64,000 nt of DNA from Solitalea canadensis DSM 3403 (GTDB taxonomy: Bacteria > Bacteroidota > Bacteroidia > Sphingobacteriales > Sphingobacteriaceae): assembly GCF_000242635.2 (NCBI RefSeq), contig NC_017770.1, positions 2,182,669 to 2,246,668 of the forward strand. The letters are read 5' to 3'. How positions within the stretch are numbered: the stretch's first letter is position 1; every line of letters begins with the position of its first letter. The position numbers and the translations under genes were made by a program. Of this stretch, positions 41,380-56,582 are shown piece by piece. Below the pieces are notes generated by a model. The model was given only the letters and a program-made list of their open reading frames with translations, was not told where the DNA came from and ran no database searches.

Positions 41380-43611
41380 ATGAATAAGTCTGGCTTATTT
41401 TCAAGTATAAAACACGATTTTCCGGCAAGTATTGTCGTTTTCCTGGTAGCTCTTCCGCTATGTTTAGGTGTTGCCCTGGCATCCGGAGCTCCATTATTTT
41501 CTGGTTTAATCGCCGGTATGGTAGGCGGTATTGTTGTAGCAAGTTTCAGTGGTTCACAGCTTAGTGTTAGTGGTCCTGCTGCGGGCTTAACAGCTATCGT
41601 TTTAAGTGCAATTACTCAATTAAGTACTTATGAAACCTTTTTGTTTGCAGTTGTTTTGGCAGGTGTATTACAATTAATTTTCGGTTTACTAAAAGCTGGT
41701 ACTGTTTCCAACTATATACCTTCCAATGTAATTAAAGGTATGTTGGCTGCTATTGGTATCATCCTTATTTTAAAGCAGATACCTCATGCTTTCGGTTATG
41801 ATGCAACAGCAGAAGGCCTATTTGCATTCGCACAACCTGATCAGCATAATACATTCACTGAACTGTATTTCATGCTGAATAAAATTCATCCGGGAGCTGT
41901 TATTATAGCATTAATCTCCGTGGCTATTTTATTAATCTGGGAACGCCCCTTCTTTAAGAAATTCAGGTTATTCCCGGCTCCATTAGCAGTTGTTGCGGTT
42001 GGGGTACTTTTAAATCAAATCTTCCTTTCATCAGGATCTCCACTTGGAATTCAACCATCTCACTTGGTTAGTATTCCTGTGAGTGATGGTCTTGGAGGTT
42101 TTTTCAGCAACTTTAAAACACCTGATTTCTCTGCATTTGCTAATCCACAGGTATATGTGGTGGCAGTTACATTAGCAATTGTTGCTTCTATTGAATCATT
42201 ATTAAGCTTGGAGGCTTCTGATAAAATGGATCCGGAGCGTCGTTACTCTTCTACTAATCAAGAATTAAAGGCTCAGGGTATTGGTAACATTGTTTCTGGT
42301 TTAATCGGAGGTTTGCCGGTAACTTCAGTAATTGTAAGAAGCTCTGCCAACATTCAATCTGGAGCAAAAACCAAGCTTTCAGCAATTATGCATGGTGTTT
42401 TGTTATTGCTTTCAGCTTTGTTAATTCCGGGTTTATTAAATATGATCCCATTAGCAGCTTTAGCAGCTATCCTAATCATGACGGGTTATAAATTGGCTAA
42501 AGTGAGCATCTTTAAAGAAATGTTTAAAAACGGATGGGGACAATTCCTGCCGTTTGTAATCACTATTGCAGCTATTGTATTTACCGATTTATTGATTGGT
42601 ATTGCCATTGGTATTGTTGTGTCTACGTTAAGTATTCTTAACAAAAACCTACGCAATTCTTACTTCTTCAAAAAAGAGCAATATCATGATGGTGAAGTGA
42701 TTCGTGTTGAATTATCAGAAGAAGTATCGTTCTTAAATAAAGCCTCATTAATGCTTACACTTGAGAATCTTCCGCATAACTCAAAAGTTATTTTAGATGC
42801 TACTCGCTCTGTATACATTGATTTTGATGTAATCGAAGTGATCAAGGAGTTTAAAAATGTAAAGGCCCCTGAAAGAAATATTCAACTGAATCTGCTTGGA
42901 TTCAAAAACAATTATAAAGATTATAACAATGTGAGCTTTATGAGTGCGCCTACAAAAGAGTCGCAGTCACAATTAAAGCCTTCGCAAGTGCTTCAGATTT
43001 TAAAAGATGGAAATAATCGTTTTGTGCATAACCATCGTTTAGACAGAAATCACTCACACTTGGTACACACCACCGCATCAGGACAATTTCCACATGCTGT
43101 TGTATTAAGCTGTATTGATTCAAGAACATCATCTGAAGTGATTTTTGATCAGAGTATCGGAGATATTTTCAGCGTCCGTATAGCGGGTAACGTAAGTAAT
43201 GAAGATATTTTAGGAAGTATGGAATTTGGATGTAAAGTTGCCGGCTCAAAACTAATAGTAGTGCTTGGTCACACAAATTGTGGTGCTATTAAGGGCGCAT
43301 GTGATCATGTTCAACTAGGTAACCTTACCGGATTATTATCAAAAGTGAAACCTGCTCTCGACGCTGAAGTGGTAACACTTGAGAACAGAACTTCTAAAAA
43401 TACTGACTTCGTAAATAACGTTACCCGACTAAACGTTTTTACAACAATGAAAAATATTCGCGAATCGAGCCCGATTTTGAATGAGATGATCAACTCAGGA
43501 GAGATTGCCTTGGTTGGAGCGATGTATGACGTAGAAACAGGAAAAGTTACTTTCTATGAGAAATCATTGGTTGAATCAAAATTTACACCTGTTCAGATAT
43601 TACAGGATTAA
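41380..43611 (+). CDS. SulP transporter fused to beta carbonic anhydrase
   Basis: A 743-residue fusion. Residues about 1-430 are a SulP anion transporter with about 12-14 helices (FPASIVVFLVALPLCLGVALASGAPLFSGLIAG motif region). A STAS-like stretch follows (about 450-520). The C-terminal ~190 residues form a beta carbonic anhydrase with Cys578, Asp580 and Arg582 (CIDSR), His631 and Cys634 (HTNCGAIKGA), so it appears catalytically complete. I infer bicarbonate (or other anion) transport coupled to CO2/bicarbonate interconversion at the membrane. Similar fusions occur in other bacteria. Confidence 0.9.
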   Translation: MNKSGLFSSIKHDFPASIVVFLVALPLCLGVALASGAPLFSGLIAGMVGGIVVASFSGSQLSVSGPAAGLTAIVLSAITQLSTYETFLFAVVLAGVLQLIFGLLKAGTVSNYIPSNVIKGMLAAIGIILILKQIPHAFGYDATAEGLFAFAQPDQHNTFTELYFMLNKIHPGAVIIALISVAILLIWERPFFKKFRLFPAPLAVVAVGVLLNQIFLSSGSPLGIQPSHLVSIPVSDGLGGFFSNFKTPDFSAFANPQVYVVAVTLAIVASIESLLSLEASDKMDPERRYSSTNQELKAQGIGNIVSGLIGGLPVTSVIVRSSANIQSGAKTKLSAIMHGVLLLLSALLIPGLLNMIPLAALAAILIMTGYKLAKVSIFKEMFKNGWGQFLPFVITIAAIVFTDLLIGIAIGIVVSTLSILNKNLRNSYFFKKEQYHDGEVIRVELSEEVSFLNKASLMLTLENLPHNSKVILDATRSVYIDFDVIEVIKEFKNVKAPERNIQLNLLGFKNNYKDYNNVSFMSAPTKESQSQLKPSQVLQILKDGNNRFVHNHRLDRNHSHLVHTTASGQFPHAVVLSCIDSRTSSEVIFDQSIGDIFSVRIAGNVSNEDILGSMEFGCKVAGSKLIVVLGHTNCGAIKGACDHVQLGNLTGLLSKVKPALDAEVVTLENRTSKNTDFVNNVTRLNVFTTMKNIRESSPILNEMINSGEIALVGAMYDVETGKVTFYEKSLVESKFTPVQILQD

Positions 43612-45459: not shown

Positions 45460-45493
45460 CAAGAATCCCCCGCTAACAGCAGGGGATTTCTTG
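45460..45493. terminator. Terminator-like hairpin
   Basis: CAAGAATCCCC and GGGGATTTCTTG form a stem with one bulge around an 11-nt loop. It may end transcription from either side in this gap. Confidence 0.55.
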
Positions 45494-45588: not shown

Positions 45589-47127
45589 TTAAGCTACAGT
45601 AGCAATTGATTTCATGGCTGTCATCGCTTGTCTTAATACTTCACCTACAGCTTCAATCTGGTGAGTACGAATCGATTTATTAACAGCAATTAATTTTTTA
45701 TTGTCTACCCCTGCATCCTTGCCTTCATTATAATTTTTACCGATAACATTTGTATCAACAGTTTTCATGAAATCAGCTAATAATGGCTTACATGCGTGGT
45801 CGAATAAGTAACAACCATACTCGGCTGTATCAGAAATTACACGGTTCATTTCAAATAACTTTTTACGTGCAATAGTGTTTGCAATTAATGGAGTTTCATG
45901 CAATGATTCGTAATAAGCTGATTCAGCTTTGATACCTGCTTCTACCATGGTTTCAAAAGCTAATTCAACACCAGCTCTTACCATTGCAACCATTAATAAA
46001 CCATTATCGAAAAACTCTTGCTCAGTAATTTTAACGTCTGCAGGAGCAGTTTTCTCAAACGCTGTTTCTCCGGTAGCAGCTCTCCAGGTTAACAGGTTTT
46101 TATCGTCATTTGCCCAGTCAGCCATCATAGTTGCAGAGAAAACACCACTCATGATGTCATCCTGATGTTTCTGAAACAACGGACGCATAATATTTTTCAA
46201 TTCTTCCGATACATCAAAAGCTTTGATTTTAGCAGGATTTGAAAGTCTGTCCATCATCGCAGTAATACCCCCTTGCTTTAACGCCTCGGTAATAACTTCC
46301 CAGCCGTATTGGATCAATTTTGCAGCGTATCCTTTATCAATTCCTTTTTCAACCATTTTGTCGAAACAAAGGATAGAACCAGTTTGCAATAAACCACAAA
46401 GAATAGTTTGCTCACCCATTAAGTCAGATTTCACCTCTGCTACAAAAGATGATTTTAAAACACCTGCTTTATGACCTCCGGTACCTACCGCATAAGCTTT
46501 TGCTTGTGCCCAGCCTTTACCTTCCGGATCATTTTCAGGGTGAACAGCAATTAGCGTAGGAACACCGAAACCTCTTTTATATTCTTCACGTACCTCAGTA
46601 CCCGGACATTTAGGGGCAACCATAATAACAGTGATGTCTTTACGGATCTGCATGCCTTCTTCCACAATGTTAAACCCGTGAGAATAAGATAAAGTAGCTC
46701 CTTTTTTCATTAAAGGCATAACGGCAGATACCACTGCAGTATGTTGCTTATCAGGAGTAAGGTTGATTACCACATCAGCACCCGGAATTAATTCTTCGTA
46801 AGTACCAACAGTAAATCCGTTTTCAGTAGCACTTTTCCAAGATTGACGTTTTGCATCAATTGCCTCCTGACGTAATGCGTATGAAACATTTAAACCAGAA
46901 TCTCTTAAGTTTAATCCTTGGTTTAAACCTTGTGCTCCACATCCAACAATTACGAGTTTTTTGCCTTTAAGGGCATCAACACCATCTGCAAAATGGCTAT
47001 TATCAAGAAATTCACATACACCTAGTTGGTTTAATTTTTCACGCAAAGAAAGTGTATTGAAATAGTTAGTCATATTTGATTTGCTGGTTGCCAATTCAAC
47101 TGCATCAGCAAAATTTGATTGTCCCAT
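45589..47127 (-). CDS. ilvC: Ketol-acid reductoisomerase, class II
   Basis: IlvC isomerises and reduces acetolactate or acetohydroxybutyrate in Val/Leu/Ile synthesis. The protein is long (class II, E. coli type), with the NADPH site [20 protein letters not shown], and [40 protein letters not shown] carrying Mg-binding acidic residues. The frame starts at 47127, giving 512 residues; an internal ATG at 47073 ([14 protein letters not shown]) matches the E. coli start and would give 494. Last gene of the ilvAEDBNC run; it has its own terminator downstream. Confidence 0.95.
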
Positions 47128-47190: not shown

Positions 47191-47736
47191 TTAATTCAGA
47201 ATAGTTTCATACTCCGACAATTCCTCCGCATGATAAATCTCATGTGCCTGATGACGTTGCTTATGAATGGCAATACGACCTGAGTGCACAAACTCCAGCA
47301 AACCAAAAGGTTTAAGCATGTCATAGAACAGCATCAGTTCTTCCAGCGTACCCGTTTTTTCCAAAGCAGTAAAGCCTGGTTCCATGTAAACTACACGTGC
47401 ACTATGCTCATTTGCAAGGTTGATAATCGGAGTTACTTTAGTTGCGTCCTCAATATTGACCTTATAAATAGCCACCTCGCTAAAGATCATATTGTCAGCA
47501 TCATAAGCATAGGCAATTAATACTTCAATTACCTTGTTAATTTGCTGAACCAATTTCTTGCTCATGTCTTCTGTACACTTAACCACAATGGTAAAGCGTG
47601 AAATGCCTTTTTTTTCGGTCTCAGAAACAGTTAAACTTTCGATGTTAATACGTCGACGTGTAAATATAATTGTCAAACGATTAAGCAAACCGATATTGTT
47701 TTCAGTGAAAACCGATATTGTATATAATTTTTCCAT
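47191..47736 (-). CDS. ilvN: Acetolactate synthase small (regulatory) subunit
   Basis: The 181-residue regulatory subunit binds valine for feedback inhibition of IlvB. The N-terminal ACT domain is TISVFTENNIGLLNRLTIIFTRRRINIESLTVSETEKKGISRF, and a second C-terminal domain follows. It lies between ilvB and ilvC on the same strand with spacers of 149 and 63 bp. Length is slightly above the E. coli IlvH form. Confidence 0.92.
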   Translation of the reverse strand: MEKLYTISVFTENNIGLLNRLTIIFTRRRINIESLTVSETEKKGISRFTIVVKCTEDMSKKLVQQINKVIEVLIAYAYDADNMIFSEVAIYKVNIEDATKVTPIINLANEHSARVVYMEPGFTALEKTGTLEELMLFYDMLKPFGLLEFVHSGRIAIHKQRHQAHEIYHAEELSEYETILN

Positions 47737-47885: not shown

Positions 47886-49631
47886 TTATTCCAATCTCAC
47901 CTCATCAACACTTGCACCTGTAGCCACCATTGGGAAAACATTTACTTCTTTTTCCACTACAACTTCTAATAAGAAAGGACCGTCAAAAGCTAGCATTTCA
48001 TCAATTGCCCCATTCAGTTCAGCACGCTCAGTGATCTTTTTACCTTCAATGCCAAAACCTTTTCCAATGGTAATGAAATCAGGATTCTGCAATTCAACAA
48101 ACGAATAACGATTATCGAAAAACATTTCCTGCCATTGACGAACCATTCCTAAGAAATTATTATTCAAAATGATGATCTTAACCGGAAGTTTGCTTTGAGC
48201 AATGGTTCCTAATTCCTGAATAGTCATTTGGAAACAACCATCACCAATTATTGCTACCACCTCACGCTCAGGAGTTGCTACTTTTGCACCAAACGCTGCT
48301 GGTAACGCAAAACCCATTGTGCCTAAACCTCCCGAAGAAATGAATGAATTAGTACGAGCGAATTTGTAGTAACGAGCCGCCATCATTTGATGTTGGCCAA
48401 CATCGGCCACAATCGCTGCCTCACCTTTCGTTTTTTCCGAAAGTTTGTTGATTACCTCTCCCATCTTCATTCCGCCTTCTGTTGGATAAACTTCATGCTG
48501 AACTACCTTTTCATATTCCTGGCGATCGCAATCCTTAAATCGCTCTAACCATTCTTTATGCTCTCTTTTTGAGATCAAAGGAAGTAATACCTGTAATGCC
48601 TCTTTAGCATCCGCATTAATTGAAACAGCTGTTTTAACATTTTTATCTATTTCAGCAGGATCAACTTCTATATGGATAACTTTTGCCTGCTTTGCGTATC
48701 GGCTAAGATCGCCAGTTACACGATCATCGAAACGCATACCAATGGCAATGATAACATCTGCTTGATTTGTAAGCAGGTTTGCTCCATAATTTCCATGCAT
48801 TCCTAACATACCAACATATTGAGGATGTGCAACCGGAAACGCTGATAAACCATGTAATGTGCTTGCAACCGGAATACCCGACTTCTCTACAAACTCACGG
48901 ATTTCTTGTTCAGCTTTTGATATCAATACTCCCTGACCAATAAATAAGAAAGGCTTTTGGGATGAATTGATTAATTCTGCTGCTTTTTCTGCCTGTTCGT
49001 ATGTATAATTAGATTTTGGCCGGTAGCCACGTACACTGTTACATTTTACATTTCTAAACTCACTACTTAATAGTTCAAATTGAGCATTTTTAGTAACATC
49101 AATTAACACAGGACCCGGACGGCCGCTGCGAGCGATATAAAATGCTTTTGAAATAATCTCAGGGATTTCATCTGCAGTTGTTACCTGGTAATTCCATTTA
49201 GTAATGGGCATCGTCATACCGATAACATCGGCCTCCTGAAAAGCATCAGTACCTAAAAGTGATTTGGCAACCTGGCCAACGATACAAACCATTGGTACGC
49301 TATCCATCATGGCATCTGCAATTGGAGTGATCAGATTAGTAGCACCCGGTCCTGAGGTTACAAGGCATACGCCCACTTTGCCCGAAATACGTGCATAACC
49401 TTCAGCTGCGTGACCGGCTCCCTGCTCATGACGAACCAAAATATGATTTAGTTTTTCACGATAATCATAAAGTGCATCGTAGACCGGCATAATTGCACCG
49501 CCCGGATAACCGAAAATGGTATCCACTCCTTCTGCGACCAAAGCCATCATTAATGCTTCGGAACCATTGATCTGACGTGCAGCTGCCTTTGTTGCAACTT
49601 TTTGAGTGTCGTTTTGAACTGTTGTACTCAT
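47886..49631 (-). CDS. ilvB: Acetolactate synthase large subunit
   Basis: The catalytic subunit condenses pyruvate with pyruvate or 2-oxobutyrate. From the ATG at 49631 (MSTTVQNDTQ) it has 581 residues; the frame is open to 49694, within a repeat. The N-terminal thiamine-diphosphate region has GVDTIFGYPGGAIMPVYDAL and RHEQGAGHAAEGYAR with the activating Glu. The C-terminal TPP/Mg site is GDGCFQMTIQELGTIAQSKLPVKIIILNN. All three TPP-enzyme domains are present. Confidence 0.95.
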   Translation of the reverse strand: MSTTVQNDTQKVATKAAARQINGSEALMMALVAEGVDTIFGYPGGAIMPVYDALYDYREKLNHILVRHEQGAGHAAEGYARISGKVGVCLVTSGPGATNLITPIADAMMDSVPMVCIVGQVAKSLLGTDAFQEADVIGMTMPITKWNYQVTTADEIPEIISKAFYIARSGRPGPVLIDVTKNAQFELLSSEFRNVKCNSVRGYRPKSNYTYEQAEKAAELINSSQKPFLFIGQGVLISKAEQEIREFVEKSGIPVASTLHGLSAFPVAHPQYVGMLGMHGNYGANLLTNQADVIIAIGMRFDDRVTGDLSRYAKQAKVIHIEVDPAEIDKNVKTAVSINADAKEALQVLLPLISKREHKEWLERFKDCDRQEYEKVVQHEVYPTEGGMKMGEVINKLSEKTKGEAAIVADVGQHQMMAARYYKFARTNSFISSGGLGTMGFALPAAFGAKVATPEREVVAIIGDGCFQMTIQELGTIAQSKLPVKIIILNNNFLGMVRQWQEMFFDNRYSFVELQNPDFITIGKGFGIEGKKITERAELNGAIDEMLAFDGPFLLEVVVEKEVNVFPMVATGASVDEVRLE

Positions 49632-49636
49632 ATACT

Positions 49637-49712
49637 TTAATTTTGGGATTACACCGATTTTAGATTGATTACATTGAAAAATCGGCGTAATCATTTTAAA
49701 ATCGGTGTAATC
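49637..49712. repeat. GATTACACCGATTTT inverted repeat between ilvD and ilvB
   Basis: GATTACACCGATTTT near 49648-49662 and AAAATCGGTGTAATC near 49697-49711 are exact complements, with a further GATTACA / CGGCGTAATC pair inside. It forms a long hairpin within the operon, related to the GATTACA repeats near 33735-33850. Confidence 0.8.
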
Positions 49713-49717
49713 ATCTA

Positions 49718-51397
49718 TTATAATTCATCTGTAACGCATCCTTCAGAAGCTGATGATACGTTTTTGATATATTTAGCTAATGTTCCTTTGGTGGCTCTCC
49801 ATGCAGGTGCCTGCCATGAAGCTTTTCTTTTTGCGATCTCCTCATCGCTTAATTCAGCATTGATGACTCGTTTTTCAGCATCAATCATAATAATATCACC
49901 ATTTTTAATTAAGCCGATCAAACCTCCATTTTGAGCTTCAGGAGTGATGTGTCCCACAACGAAACCATGTGTACCACCTGAGAAGCGACCATCTGTAACC
50001 AGCGCAACACTTTTACCTAAACCAGCTCCCATGATCAACGATGTTGGCTTTAACATTTCAGGCATTCCGGGTGCTCCTTTAGGGCCTTGATAACGAATCA
50101 CCACCACATCTCCTTTGTCAATTTTACCGGTTAATACCGCGTCGCTAAACTCGAATTCGGAATCAAAAACTTTCGCCGGGCCACTAAAATGTAATCCTTC
50201 CTTACCGGTGATTTTTGCAACTGAACCTTCCTTAGCAAGGTTACCGTATAATATCTGTAAGTGACCACTAGGTTTAATTGGTGCACTTAACGGAACAATA
50301 ATTTTCTGATCTACCGATAAATCCGGAATATCTGCAAGATTCTCTGCCACTGTTTTACCAGTTACAGTTAAGCAGTCGCCATGTAAGAAACCTTCTTTCA
50401 ATAAGTATTTCATTACAGCCGGAATACCGCCAATCTTGTGCACATCTTCCATCAAATATTTACCACTTGGTTTTAAGTCGGCAATAAATGGTGTTTTATC
50501 TGATATGCGTTGAAAATCATCAATGGTTAACTTGATATCTACTGCTTTAGCCATAGCAATCAAGTGAATAACTGCATTGGTTGATCCTCCTAAAGCCATT
50601 ATAATTGTCATTGCATTTTCAAATGCCTTTTCAGTCATAATATCTTTCGGAAGAATATTTTTCTCCAGTAATACACGAATAGCTTTTCCGGCGGCTTTAC
50701 ATTCGTCCTGTTTTTCTTTACTTGTAGCAGGGTTTGAAGAACTGTAAGGCAAACTCATTCCTAAAGCTTCAATAGCCGACGACATGGTGTTTGCTGTGTA
50801 CATACCTCCACATGCGCCCGAACCCGGACAAGCATGCTTCACCACTTCTTTAAATTCTTCAGGTGTAATATCACCGCTAATTTTTTGCCCTAACGCTTCA
50901 AAAGCAGAAATAATGTCGAGGTTTTGACCATTATGATGGCCGGCGTTAATTGTTCCTCCATAAACCATAATAGAAGGGCGATTTAAACGACCCATTGCCA
51001 TTAATGCGCCAGGCATATTTTTATCACAGCCCATTACGGTAATTACACCATCGTAAAACATCGCCGAAACAACAGTTTCAATACTATCGGCAATGATATC
51101 ACGAGATTGTAATGAAAAACGCATACCCGCGGTTCCGTTTGAAATACCATCACTTACGCCAATGGTGTTAAAAACAAGACCAATCATATCATTTTCTCTA
51201 ACGCTCCCTTTAATTACCTGGGATAAATCATTCAGATGCATGTTACAAGTATTTCCATCGTAACCTGCACTGGCAATGCCTACCTGGGCTTTTTTCATGT
51301 CTTCATCAGTAAGACCAATGCCATATAACATGGCTTGAGCACCAGGAAGTGTAGTGTCTTCAGTTAATGTCGCACTATATCTGTTCAGTTTAGTCAT
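49718..51397 (-). CDS. ilvD: Dihydroxy-acid dehydratase
   Basis: IlvD dehydrates 2,3-dihydroxy acids in branched-chain amino-acid synthesis and uses an Fe-S cluster. From the ATG at 51397 ([14 protein letters not shown]) it has 559 residues. Cluster cysteines lie in the CNMHLND region, [13 protein letters not shown] and [16 protein letters not shown]. The C-terminal [20 protein letters not shown] block is typical. The upstream frame extension to 51448 is rejected in favour of the conventional start. Confidence 0.95.
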
Positions 51398-51475: not shown

Positions 51476-52363
51476 TTATATGATATAACCTTTGTATTCT
51501 TTTAAAGTAACTCGTTTCCTGTACTTTACACTGATTTCATAACCAATGGTATCTTCCCACTTTTTACGAAAGCCTTTACCGTCAATACTTTCAATACCTG
51601 CTACTTCGGCGGCCGTTCCGGTTGAGAATGCTCCATCAATATCAATTAGGTCTTCTGGTCTTATTTTTCCTTCTACCACATCATACCCTAAGTATTTAGC
51701 TATTTCGATGACCGTAGATCGGGTTATTCCCGGAAATATATTGCCTACTTCAGGAGTGTAGATTACATTATCTCTTTCGAAGAAAAAGTTTGAAGCAGCA
51801 CATTGAGAAACAAAACCATTTTGGTCTAATAGTAATGCTTCATCAAAACCTTTTGATTTAGCCTCTCGCGTAGCCAAAATTGCATTCACATATTGCCCGG
51901 TTACTTTGGTATCAACATGGAATGACGAAGGGCTTATACGGCTATAAGACGAAGTCATTAAACGAGTTTGTTTATCTCCATAATACACCGCCCAACTCAA
52001 TGCCCCTATGAAAATATTATGACTGTTACTTGGTGTCAATGAAAGATTATCACCAGCAAAAACCAATGGACGCAGATAAGCATTTTTTAAGTGATTCTGA
52101 CGAATCAATTCGTATGAAATGTCTGTTAGTTCTTCAACAGTATAATTGAGCTTAATATGTAACTTATCGCATGAATAAAGCAATCGCTTAAAATGTTCAA
52201 TAGGCTTAAAAATTCGCGTTCCGTCATCCGTTTCATAAGCACGAATCCCTTCGAATGCACTGTTGCCATAATGAAACGACTGACTGTAAGGACTGAATCT
52301 CACATCTTTGGCTTTTACATACTTCCCATTGTAAAAAACCACGGAGTTTTCGTTAAACTGCAT
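51476..52363 (-). CDS. ilvE: Branched-chain amino-acid aminotransferase
   Basis: A 295-residue fold-type IV PLP aminotransferase making Ile, Leu and Val from their keto acids. The PLP lysine is Lys153 in DTKVTGQYVNAILA. Other motifs are FHYGNSAFEGIRAYE, CAASNFFFERDN and FSTGTAAEVAGIESIDGK. It is flanked by ilvA and ilvD on the same strand, so the BCAT assignment over D-amino-acid transaminase is well supported by context. Confidence 0.93.
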   Translation of the reverse strand: MQFNENSVVFYNGKYVKAKDVRFSPYSQSFHYGNSAFEGIRAYETDDGTRIFKPIEHFKRLLYSCDKLHIKLNYTVEELTDISYELIRQNHLKNAYLRPLVFAGDNLSLTPSNSHNIFIGALSWAVYYGDKQTRLMTSSYSRISPSSFHVDTKVTGQYVNAILATREAKSKGFDEALLLDQNGFVSQCAASNFFFERDNVIYTPEVGNIFPGITRSTVIEIAKYLGYDVVEGKIRPEDLIDIDGAFSTGTAAEVAGIESIDGKGFRKKWEDTIGYEISVKYRKRVTLKEYKGYII

Positions 52364-52434: not shown

Positions 52435-53688
52435 CTATACGAGATATTTTCTAAGCATTTCATGATCATTTACATTGATGTAATTGATATGATTTTGCCT
52501 GAAGCGAAACAACAACGGTTCCAAATCAGCTTTGGATGCTAACTCAATCCCTACCAGAGCCGGTCCAAACTCCTTATTTGTTTTCTTCAGATATTGAAAA
52601 TGCACAATGTCGTCGTTTGGCCCCAACGCATCATTTAAGAAATTACGAAGTTCACCCGGCTTCTGTGCAAATTCAACGATAAAGTAATGCTTTAGGCCTT
52701 CGTAAATCAAACTACGCTCAATTACCTCCGGGTAGCGAGCAATATCATTATTACCACCACTAATTACACAAACCACCTTTTTCCCCTTTAATTGAGGTGC
52801 TAGTTTGTCTAATGCAGCAACAGAAAGTGCTCCTGCCGGTTCGGTTATAATTCCCTCATTTTGATAAAGTTCGATCATAGTAGTACAAACCTTACCTTCA
52901 TGAACCGTTAAAAATTCATCAATATTTTCCGATGCCAAACGGAAAGTAAGATCACCAATTTGCTTAACTGCAGCACCATCAATAAATGTATCGATAGACT
53001 CTAAACGTACTGGCTTACCTTCTTTCAGCGCTGCAATCATTTTTGGTGCTCCTTCAGGGTCAATACCAATAACTTTTACATTGGGATTAATTTCTTTGAA
53101 AAACAAAGAGGCTCCTGACGCTAATCCTCCTCCACCTACAGGCACTACTAACACATCAAAATCCTGTAATTCATCGTCAATTTCTTTTGCTACTGTTGCC
53201 TGTCCATAAATGGTGTTCCAATCATCAAAAGGATGGATAAATGCTAGATTATTTTGCTCTGCAAATCTTTTAGAAGCAGCATAAGCCTCATCGTAGGTCG
53301 TTCCGGTTAACACCACATTTACCCATTCACCTCCAAAACTTCTCACTTTTTCAATCTTTTGTCTCGGCGTTACCTGAGGCATAAAGATGTGCGACTTAAT
53401 TTTCAGCTTACTGCTACTAAAAGCTACCCCTTGAGCATGATTTCCTGCACTTGCACACACAACACCTCTACTGCGCTGCTCATCACTTAGACCGATAATA
53501 TTATTGTACGCACCTCTAATTTTGTACGAACGTACAGGTTGCATGTCCTCCCTTTTGAAATACATTTTACAATCATATTTCTCCGACAAGCGGGAAATGT
53601 ATTGCAGTGGCGTTTTCAGGGCTACACCATTTAATCTCTCAGCGGCTAAGCTTATTTGTTCAGTTACGTTAGAAGTTGTTGTTTGCAT
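52435..53688 (-). CDS. ilvA: Threonine ammonia-lyase
   Basis: IlvA deaminates threonine to 2-oxobutyrate, the committed step of isoleucine synthesis. The 417-residue protein carries the PLP lysine Lys56 in RSYKIRGAYN, SAGNHAQGVAFSS, and the phosphate-binding loop VPVGGGGLASGA. The C-terminal region from about 330 (FIVEFAQKPGELRNFLNDAL) resembles a single ACT-like regulatory domain. It is the first gene of the ilv run and is preceded by a leader peptide and terminator hairpin (attenuator). Confidence 0.95.
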   Translation of the reverse strand: MQTTTSNVTEQISLAAERLNGVALKTPLQYISRLSEKYDCKMYFKREDMQPVRSYKIRGAYNNIIGLSDEQRSRGVVCASAGNHAQGVAFSSSKLKIKSHIFMPQVTPRQKIEKVRSFGGEWVNVVLTGTTYDEAYAASKRFAEQNNLAFIHPFDDWNTIYGQATVAKEIDDELQDFDVLVVPVGGGGLASGASLFFKEINPNVKVIGIDPEGAPKMIAALKEGKPVRLESIDTFIDGAAVKQIGDLTFRLASENIDEFLTVHEGKVCTTMIELYQNEGIITEPAGALSVAALDKLAPQLKGKKVVCVISGGNNDIARYPEVIERSLIYEGLKHYFIVEFAQKPGELRNFLNDALGPNDDIVHFQYLKKTNKEFGPALVGIELASKADLEPLLFRFRQNHINYINVNDHEMLRKYLV

Positions 53689-53703
53689 AAAATGGTACTT
53701 AAC

Positions 53704-53740
53704 AAAAGAGCCGCTTCCTTTTTCAGGAAGCGGCTCTTTT
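53704..53740 (-). terminator. Attenuator terminator upstream of ilvA
   Basis: A perfect 15-bp stem (AAAAGAGCCGCTTCC / GGAAGCGGCTCTTTT, 7-nt loop) lies 15 bp before the ilvA start, read in the minus direction. The 3' arm ends in TTTT followed by GTT. Its 5' arm and loop contain CTTCCTG (53730-53724), which can pair with the upstream CAGGGAAG (53784-53777). Confidence 0.85.
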
Positions 53741-53776
53741 TATGTTTGTGTTTGCTTTACATATTTGAGTGCACTA

Positions 53777-53784
53777 CTTCCCTG
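53777..53784 (-). promoter_or_regulatory. Antiterminator arm
   Basis: CAGGGAAG, immediately after the leader-peptide stop codon, is complementary (with one bulge) to CTTCCTG in the terminator's 5' arm and loop. A ribosome at the leader stop codon would cover it and allow the terminator to form. Confidence 0.6.
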
Positions 53785-53847
53785 TCATGTGTGAATAATC
53801 ACCACGATAATAATAATGACAGTAATAATAGTGCTTAGATTTCTCAT
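53785..53847 (-). CDS. ilv leader peptide (attenuation)
   Basis: A 20-residue ORF, MRNLSTIITVIIIIVVIIHT, with ATG at 53847 and TGA at 53785-53787. Eight Ile, three Val, three Thr and one Leu codon make up 15 of 20 residues, exactly the amino acids made by the downstream ilvAEDBNC genes. Its stop is followed directly by a sequence complementary to the terminator's 5' arm, then the terminator, then ilvA. This fits ribosome-mediated transcription attenuation: a shortage of Ile/Val tRNA stalls the ribosome and frees the antiterminator arm. Confidence 0.8.
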   Translation of the reverse strand: MRNLSTIITVIIIIVVIIHT

Positions 53848-53939
53848 TTGTTTATCTATAATGCTAATGTATTGCGATACTTTTAAAAAACCAAATCAAA
53901 GTTTAAAAAAATTAAATCATTCTACGATGTCTATTGCTC

Positions 53940-56582
53940 TTAATAGCTATCATCGTAATAATAAGGACGACGTTTACTTAGCTTCAAATCCTGTAAAATC
54001 GACGATTTTACCCTTAAATCGATGCTATAACTCTTATATCCTCCAAACGGAATCCAATACACAGAAAGGTCCCAACAGTGTAAATCTCTTATGATACCCA
54101 AACTGGTTGGAGAAAGCACTCCGTTAGTAATATCATAACCTGTTGTTCCATTAATCTTCCATTTAGGTGTCAAACTAAAGTCTCCACGCACGTTAACAGT
54201 TTGCGACGTAGATTTAGTTAATCCGTTATTTGAATAATTAAGGGAGTAATCTAATCCTAAATTCCATGGAATATTAAAGTCGATGAAATCATTCGGATTC
54301 GGGTCGATCATGTACAGATCTCTCCGTTGCTGATTTGTTATAGGGGTTTTTCGTTTTGATTCAGAATTAAAGTTTGCACTTAACGACACGTATGCATTTG
54401 TCATGCGAACCAAAGGTCCTCCTTCGGAAATAGAGAAGCTATTTATACGTGTTGCCTCTTTTATTCCTAGGCTATCTGTTGATATAACAATTGCATAAGG
54501 ATCAAACGTTGCTCCAAAATTCAGATTTACCTTTTGAAATAAATTGGTAAATCCGCTCATAGTAATTGGGCTAAGTTTAAATTCATCAGCTGCAAAATTA
54601 TAGCTGGTTGAAAAAGAGAGATCATTGATTAATGATATTTTCTTCTCACCATTAATACTATCCTTCTTAGAGCGCACCTTCATTTCAAGGTTGTTGCTCA
54701 AGCTGAAGTTAAGGGCACTTTGTACGCTACCATTAGGACTCGGTCCAGAATTAACCTGTCCCTCAAAGATTGAATATTGAACTGTATCTTTAGTAGCAGT
54801 ATTTATATAGCTTTTAATATAGCCATAACTTGGGTCTGAGAAATTAGGCCTATATGAATATCCTACTGAAGGCCGTACTGTATGACGAATAGCTTTTATA
54901 CCACCATTTTTGAATTGCGCCATACCATATAAAGTGGTAGATGCTGCCACATTAAAGCCATATTCCCTGTAAGATTTGAAACCATTATGCATTTGTGTTT
55001 CAACTGAGTCATTTTTAGCGTTGTAGCTTTTTGTAATGCTCTTTAAATACCAGTTTTCTGTCAATGCAACACTTGGACTAATATTGATGTATTTCAACAC
55101 ATTGAAGTTGGTTGAAATTGGCAACTGGTGTTGAATAACTGTTTTAATTTGATCACCTATACCTGGTTTAAACAATAAACTGTCATAGGTTTGCAACTGG
55201 TTATCGAAGCGTAAGTTATAAGTAAAGTTAAGTTTATGATACCAACGCTGAGGCCCGATTCGATTTTTTGAATCAAAAGGTGTAATACGGGAAACGCTAA
55301 AGTTTAAAGCGGGTAAACCGATGTACAATGAACCTGTATTTAACTCCTGGTTAGTGGTTAAAGCGGTTGATAAGTTAAACGGAGTTCCTTGCCACGTTTT
55401 TGAATAACTAATAGAAGAAGATAACGTGTTATTAAAACGGTTAGGAAGCGGCATATAGGTACTCGTATTCTGATAATAAGTAGAAGTACCAGCATTTACA
55501 GAAGCTGAAAAGTTTTCTCCGGTTCCTTGTCTGCTTTGCGAATGTGACCATAATATCCGGAAATCTTTTGTATTGGAAAACCCTGCTGTACCCTCTTCAC
55601 CAAAACGTTGGTTAGAGTAGTTAAGGCTAAAATTACCCGAATACTTATATCGAACAATGTAACGTGAACTTACACCCAAATCATAACTTCCGTTTGTAAA
55701 AATACTCCCTCTCAGGGTCATATCCATATTATCGGTTAACCCGACATAATAACCCAAATCACGTAAAAAGAAGCCTTTTTGGGCATCCTCTCCAACTGAA
55801 GGAAATACAATTCCGTTAGCTCGTTTTGATGTTTTTGGAAAAAATCCGAATGGTAATACTAAAGGCGTAGGAATATCTTCAATGAACATATAAGCAGGGC
55901 CGGTAACCACTCTGTTTTCCATCACCTTGGCTTTAGAAATTTTAATACCAAAGTGTACATGATTAGGGTCATTACATGTAGTATAAATACCACCTTTAAG
56001 GAAACCTTCTTTATTCTCATTCAGCTTCATTTGTCCGCCGCGAATAAATCCTTCTCCTTCTTTGCTCACGCCCGACCAAACTTTTGCCTTCTTTGATTTA
56101 AAGTTATAAGCTAAACTGTCTGCAATCACATCACTGCCTTCTCCGCTTAAAAATGGTCGTCCCGCATAAAAACCACTAGTATCGTTTACTCCTTTCGCAT
56201 ACACCGTCATCGTATTCTGATCGATACGGATAAAATCGGCTTTAAGCGTAACTCCTTCATAAATTACTTCTGCATCTTTGTACAGGTACAAAAACTTACC
56301 TGCAATATCAGCGAGAATAGAGTCTTTGGCACTATATTGGACTTTCGATTGCAAAGCACCGCTACTTTTTTTATTAAGGTTTACCTTTAACGTATCCTTA
56401 GCAATTGTATCAATCTTATTGCGCTGAGGTTTTATAATGGTATCTTTTAATAAACTTGAAATAGGTAGAAATGAAGTAAAATTCCTGTTGTTAGCAACTT
56501 CCGCCATCATTGACGGTCGAAGAGACAACAAGAACAGGAAAACAAAAAAAGCTTTTAAAAAATGCTTACCTGATAATTTCAA
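53940..56582 (-). CDS. lptD: LPS assembly outer-membrane protein, LptD family
   Basis: An 880-residue outer-membrane protein that likely inserts lipopolysaccharide into the outer leaflet with LptE. After a signal peptide (starting at the TTG at 56582; no ATG lies in the signal region), there is an OstA/LptA-like jelly-roll region (GKFLYLYKDAEVIYEGVTLKADFIRID and IADSLAYNFKSKKAKVWSG) at about 80-200. The rest is a long beta-barrel of alternating strands. Bacteroidetes LptD is divergent from E. coli but keeps this layout. It lies upstream of the ilv attenuator on the same strand. Confidence 0.85.
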   Translation of the reverse strand: MKLSGKHFLKAFFVFLFLLSLRPSMMAEVANNRNFTSFLPISSLLKDTIIKPQRNKIDTIAKDTLKVNLNKKSSGALQSKVQYSAKDSILADIAGKFLYLYKDAEVIYEGVTLKADFIRIDQNTMTVYAKGVNDTSGFYAGRPFLSGEGSDVIADSLAYNFKSKKAKVWSGVSKEGEGFIRGGQMKLNENKEGFLKGGIYTTCNDPNHVHFGIKISKAKVMENRVVTGPAYMFIEDIPTPLVLPFGFFPKTSKRANGIVFPSVGEDAQKGFFLRDLGYYVGLTDNMDMTLRGSIFTNGSYDLGVSSRYIVRYKYSGNFSLNYSNQRFGEEGTAGFSNTKDFRILWSHSQSRQGTGENFSASVNAGTSTYYQNTSTYMPLPNRFNNTLSSSISYSKTWQGTPFNLSTALTTNQELNTGSLYIGLPALNFSVSRITPFDSKNRIGPQRWYHKLNFTYNLRFDNQLQTYDSLLFKPGIGDQIKTVIQHQLPISTNFNVLKYINISPSVALTENWYLKSITKSYNAKNDSVETQMHNGFKSYREYGFNVAASTTLYGMAQFKNGGIKAIRHTVRPSVGYSYRPNFSDPSYGYIKSYINTATKDTVQYSIFEGQVNSGPSPNGSVQSALNFSLSNNLEMKVRSKKDSINGEKKISLINDLSFSTSYNFAADEFKLSPITMSGFTNLFQKVNLNFGATFDPYAIVISTDSLGIKEATRINSFSISEGGPLVRMTNAYVSLSANFNSESKRKTPITNQQRRDLYMIDPNPNDFIDFNIPWNLGLDYSLNYSNNGLTKSTSQTVNVRGDFSLTPKWKINGTTGYDITNGVLSPTSLGIIRDLHCWDLSVYWIPFGGYKSYSIDLRVKSSILQDLKLSKRRPYYYDDSY

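Follow-up and report, generated by a model that had tools for sequence, protein, structure and literature searches.

A probable leader-peptide transcription attenuator before the ilvAEDBNC operon of Solitalea canadensis and leaders of the same type with independent sequences in other Bacteroidia

The window, by which we mean the whole stretch of 64,000 nucleotides of Solitalea canadensis DSM 3403 that was analysed, carries an intact ilvAEDBNC operon on its minus strand. The gene order ilvA, ilvE, ilvD, ilvB, ilvN, ilvC given in a preliminary description of this DNA was confirmed by NCBIfam models. In the direction of transcription, the operon and the elements proposed to control it are as follows.

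53864..53895, minus strand: predicted Bacteroidota-type promoter, recognised by motif (TTTG at 53895-53892 and TACATTAG at 53871-53864; consensus TAnnTTTG)
53785..53847, minus strand: leader ORF MRNLSTIITVIIIIVVIIHT plus TGA, 20 codons from ATG at 53847 to TGA at 53785, kept in four Solitalea species
53771..53834, minus strand: protector (1:2) pairing predicted by folding, between GCACUAUU...CUGUCAU of the leader and AUGACAG...AGUAGUGC, located at the stop codon and 3' of it
53776..53784, minus strand: segment 2, CAGGGAAGU, the predicted antiterminator strand immediately 3' of the leader stop codon, pairing with the terminator 5' arm
53704..53740, minus strand: terminator-like hairpin AAAAGAGCCGCUUCC/GGAAGCGGCUCUUUU, then GUU (-28.2 kcal/mol), conserved in four Solitalea species
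52435..53688, minus strand: ilvA, threonine ammonia-lyase (NCBIfam NF006390/TIGR02079, above cut-off)
51476..52363, minus strand: ilvE, branched-chain transaminase (TIGR01122, above cut-off)
49718..51397, minus strand: ilvD, dihydroxy-acid dehydratase (TIGR00110, above cut-off)
47886..49631, minus strand: ilvB, acetolactate synthase large subunit (TIGR00118, above cut-off; start codon uncertain, the ORF opens at 49694)
47191..47736, minus strand: ilvN/ilvH, acetolactate synthase small subunit (TIGR00119, above cut-off)
45589..47127, minus strand: ilvC, ketol-acid reductoisomerase (NF003557, above cut-off)
45464..45488, minus strand: terminator-like hairpin after ilvC with the tail CTTGTTTTCA, from a consensus scan only

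The last of these hairpins likely marks the end of the operon. The gene upstream of the leader, called lptD in the preliminary description, is without an NCBIfam match at the cut-off used. Elsewhere in the window (41380-43611), a single ORF of 743 aa appears to encode a SulP-type transporter fused to a beta-carbonic anhydrase domain.

The 20-codon ORF described earlier was recovered on the minus strand, where Ile, Val, Thr or Leu make up 15 of its 20 residues (8 Ile, 3 Val, 3 Thr and 1 Leu), so that it is rich in codons for the end products of the operon. Its start lies at 53847, which corrects a region drawn from 53850. The "run of eight Ile codons" stands as to the number of codons but not as a single run, the pattern being II-T-V-IIII-VV-II. 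That such an ORF is hard to explain by chance is borne out by the 1289 window ORFs of 10-40 aa, of which no other combines 8 or more Ile with an I/L/V share of 55% or more. Between the leader and the first structural gene lies the predicted terminator, a hairpin AAAAGAGCCGCTTCC-loop-GGAAGCGGCTCTTTT of 15-16 bp (53740-53704) ending in UUUU, and the ATG of ilvA at 53688 is exactly 15 nt past its TTTT; the 15-bp stem and the spacing reported before thus agree with the present analysis. The fold of 53689-53862 has a z of -7.8, largely through the contribution of this hairpin. The U-tract of the Solitalea hairpins is short, being UUUUGUU in the window genome and UUUUACU or UUUUGCU in the siblings, and is mostly paired inside the stem. 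A gap of just 15 nt leaves no space for a promoter between the hairpin and ilvA. Directly 5' of the leader, TTTG-N20-TACATTAG occupies a position common to all four Solitalea species, and its perfect TAnnTTTG form is present in the genus g7; we take this motif to be the housekeeping promoter motif of Bacteroidota. Its relaxed form has a frequency of about 0.125 per kb and strand across the window.

The sequence immediately after the leader TGA, CAGGGAAG (53784-53777), can pair with the 5' arm of the hairpin. The pairing with CTTCCTG proposed in the preliminary description requires a 1-nt bulge, and the contiguous pairing of segment 2 is GGGAAGU:GCUUCCU with two G-U pairs. This predicted antiterminator, which lies beside the leader stop, and the terminator are mutually exclusive. 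Measured against dinucleotide shuffles, the antiterminator duplex by itself is within chance in the window genome (-11.2 kcal/mol, p = 0.13) and stands out in the three sister Solitalea species (p 0.002-0.013) and in other lineages, so it is only because of the comparison with relatives that the pairing is significant. The protector pairing, examined for Solitalea, would engage leader codons with the antiterminator strand; its fold (-21.8 kcal/mol, z -3.3) is found identically within the full leader of all four species.

Comparison of the lptD-ilvA region among relatives, as the preliminary description had proposed, revealed that all four Solitalea species, in which about 26% of the bases of ilvA differ, have retained leader, post-stop segment, protector pairing and terminator. 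Synonymous changes were found in none of the 15 leader codons with invariant amino acids (positions 5-20) vs 78 of the 91 (86%) such I/V/T/H/L codons in ilvA (p ~2e-13), indicating that the RNA itself is constrained, as the protector fold would predict. Across 53776-53834, the synonymous sites of even the unpaired leader Ile and Val codons are invariant in the four species, and the three pairings account for only part of the invariance of unpaired leader bases.

Other genera and families also have leader, antiterminator and terminator in this arrangement upstream of ilvA, ilvD or ilvE, built from unrelated sequence. For instance, the same kind of leader, MLRTQQIIRAIVIILVVVIT, precedes ilvA of genus g7 in DNA unrelated to that of Solitalea; the terminator is a different one as well, and its GGGCCAUUCU pairs over 10 bp with the post-stop GGAAUGGUUU. 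The g6 leader precedes ilvD, and here it is the last leader codons (CGAAGGUGU or CGAAGGCGU) that base-pair with GCGCCUUC or ACGCCUUC, the arm of the terminator. A leader dense in branched-chain amino acid (BCAA) codons directly before a terminator was found in 30 of 106 regions upstream of the first ilv gene vs 3 of about 324 control regions, figures that, like the complementarity values given below, are supportive rather than a pre-registered test, because the leader score cut-offs were fixed after examples had been seen, the surveyed regions are a phylogenetically unbalanced sample and the controls came from mixed loci (counted after exclusion of six BCAA leaders first included among them). 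The 30 leader-positive regions span seven genera of the family and seven other families of the class Bacteroidia. Complementarity of the leader end or downstream flank to the terminator 5' arm reached p < 0.05 in 13 of 17 genus or family representatives (combined p ~5e-16, dinucleotide shuffles).

Three hits of this survey were judged false and removed by eye, namely L106 and L205, which resemble the terminal part of a coding gene lying upstream, with the conserved GGVVEVL-NKI-VLAEG, and L235, which has a weak hairpin only. The hydrophobic ORFs of the f12 genomes (L225, L227, L228, L232) resemble an ordinary small gene and were left out of the count. Genera g14, g4 and g16 are mostly without a leader. 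In most Sphingobacteriaceae no leader ORF adjoins ilvA on its 5' side, since the gene closes a larger ilv-leu cluster, in which it comes after leuB; the leader search was therefore moved to ilvD or ilvE. Two further loci were recorded in passing. An Ile-rich ORF, MLSSTASIIIGIIIIIIMA (2775-2834), ends 166 nt before an ilvA match on contig L072, which is labelled Woesearchaeota archaeon and is of doubtful binning. In a g7 genome (G009, L214:2409-4141), the ilvD beside ilvA is split into two frames of 216 and 376 aa, and a second ilvD is present elsewhere in the genome.

The Leu content of the leaders varies with whether leu genes belong to the same cluster (one-sided p = 0.004 on genus means, two genomes of unclear arrangement being left out). 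In genera with leuA 3' of ilvD in one cluster (g6, g12, g13, g18, g21, g22 and g96), Leu makes up 35-62% of I/L/V in the leader core (genus means). In those without leuA at that place (Solitalea, g7 and six others), these means lie at 0-11%, apart from two exceptions of 30% and 50%. Solitalea has its leuA at a distance of about 2.6 Mb, and no Leu codon occurs in the leader core of the window species.

Taken together, the evidence makes it very probable that the ilvAEDBNC operon is controlled by transcription attenuation of the ribosome-mediated, leader-peptide kind. This reading, put forward in the preliminary description, gains support from the conservation in Solitalea, the recurrence with unrelated sequences and the promoter motif upstream of the leader. 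From this anatomy we infer that the promoter is used, that the leader is translated, that ribosomes stall on it and that termination or readthrough follows. Transcription would start just 5' of the leader, with a ribosome trailing the polymerase through the 20-codon ORF. When charged tRNA-Ile and tRNA-Val are plentiful, the ribosome would reach the stop codon and cover segment 2, the terminator would form and transcription would stop before ilvA. If either tRNA were uncharged, the ribosome would stall on Ile or Val codons, covering the 5' side of the protector, and segment 2 could then pair with the terminator 5' arm so that transcription continues into the operon. On a leader free of ribosomes, the protector would form and lead to termination.

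The short U-tract of Solitalea makes a translational contribution possible. It is rather improbable that the hairpin, with the same leader and alternative pairing, acts mainly on translation by blocking ribosome loading at ilvA with little termination. The window genome offers some encouragement for such a role, in that the hairpin ends 15 nt from the ATG and is followed by merely four U and GUU. Nevertheless, the hairpins of many other lineages have longer T runs and sit tens to more than 100 nt ahead of the first gene, too distant to mask its start, and the hairpin at the end of ilvC in Solitalea has an equally modest tail. That the hairpin is merely the terminator of lptD, with an accidental leader ORF, is suggested by the position of that gene, which is on the same strand and ends at 53940, about 90 nt before the leader; it is very unlikely, given that the leader ORF and its codons are conserved, that the arrangement recurs before ilv genes whichever of them is first and that leader codon content tracks the operon. 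The conservation of the frame within the genus and its strong hydrophobicity would suit a functional hydrophobic micropeptide in place of a ribosome sensor. Hardly any probability attaches to this reading, since the frame keeps its composition and not its sequence across genera, is under selection at synonymous sites and has a Leu content that follows the products of the operon.

Under the attenuation reading, leader codons change in step with the gene content of the operon. It may be, though we consider this somewhat short of an even chance, that BCAA leader attenuation is class-wide in Bacteroidia, with codon content adjusted to the gain or loss of leu genes by the operon and with the leader swapped in some lineages for a conserved 22-bp operator palindrome, ATACC-N12-GGTAT. 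Classic attenuation requires a ribosome close behind the polymerase. If true, class-wide attenuation would mean that transcription and translation are effectively coupled in a phylum largely without Shine-Dalgarno initiation, and conserved attenuation with independent sequences would provide natural, testable reporters of coupling where translation initiation is unusual.

The palindrome, of constant length, is present in 44 of 106 ilvD/ilvE upstream regions (e.g., at -269 in L095 and -417 in L111), 8 of 30 leader-positive vs 36 of 76 leader-negative ones, and is absent from the window; it is possibly the operator of a regulator. Leader-like ORFs were also observed before other amino acid genes. 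A His-rich leader ORF (MNTKQHIALHRTHHHHGHHHHCA in the window genome) lies upstream of hisG in all four Solitalea species (L123, at about 1.09 Mb of the window genome; L120, L125 and L126), and similar His-rich ORFs occur in g6 and g7; no strong intrinsic terminator was recognised with the leaders upstream of hisG. At L166 (about 4.05 Mb of the window genome), L160, L163 and L165, a Trp leader, MNKINSNNFAWWRCNN, was found together with a strong terminator, AAGCTTGTCGCACTGCGGCAAGCTTTTTTT, whose 5' arm can base-pair with the post-stop TTGCGACAAG of the leader (p 0.007-0.027).

Leader-peptide attenuation is textbook knowledge in Proteobacteria. As in the ilvGMEDA operon of E. coli with its leader ilvL, a BCAA-rich leader ORF, a protector, an antiterminator and a terminator precede an operon for Ile and Val with ilvE, ilvD and ilvA among its genes. 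Unlike there, the Solitalea operon begins with ilvA, the leader is Leu-poor, matching leu genes located elsewhere, and its start is without an obvious Shine-Dalgarno sequence; no sequence relation between the two was seen. Published leaders of other lineages likewise have a BCAA-codon-rich uORF and then an intrinsic terminator before ilv genes. Set against these, the window matches no Rfam family, T-box and riboswitches included, at gathering score, the best hit over the leader region being Thr_leader (26.1 bits vs 55), and the loci of the relatives gave no Rfam match at gathering score except tRNAs. Within Bacteroidota, a study of Flavobacterium psychrophilum speaks of 'strong clues', drawn from transcriptome and structure, that amino-acid operons are preceded by leader-peptide attenuators (PMC9723704), and Bacteroid-trp RF01692 is listed as a Bacteroidetes cis-regulatory candidate (PMC2864571). 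The latter concerns trp and matches neither the ilv leader nor the Trp leader of Solitalea. Some of these Bacteroidia leaders may already have been predicted in the comparative attenuation survey of Lopatovskaya et al. (2010), cited in PMC4833913 and PMC10272879. The candidate F. psychrophilum leaders, RF01692 and the Solitalea leader have in common that they are Bacteroidota cis-regulatory leaders before amino-acid biosynthesis operons. The Solitalea ilv leader is a well-supported further case of known leader-peptide attenuation, and BCAA leaders of this type are spread more widely in Bacteroidia than the published accounts found describe.
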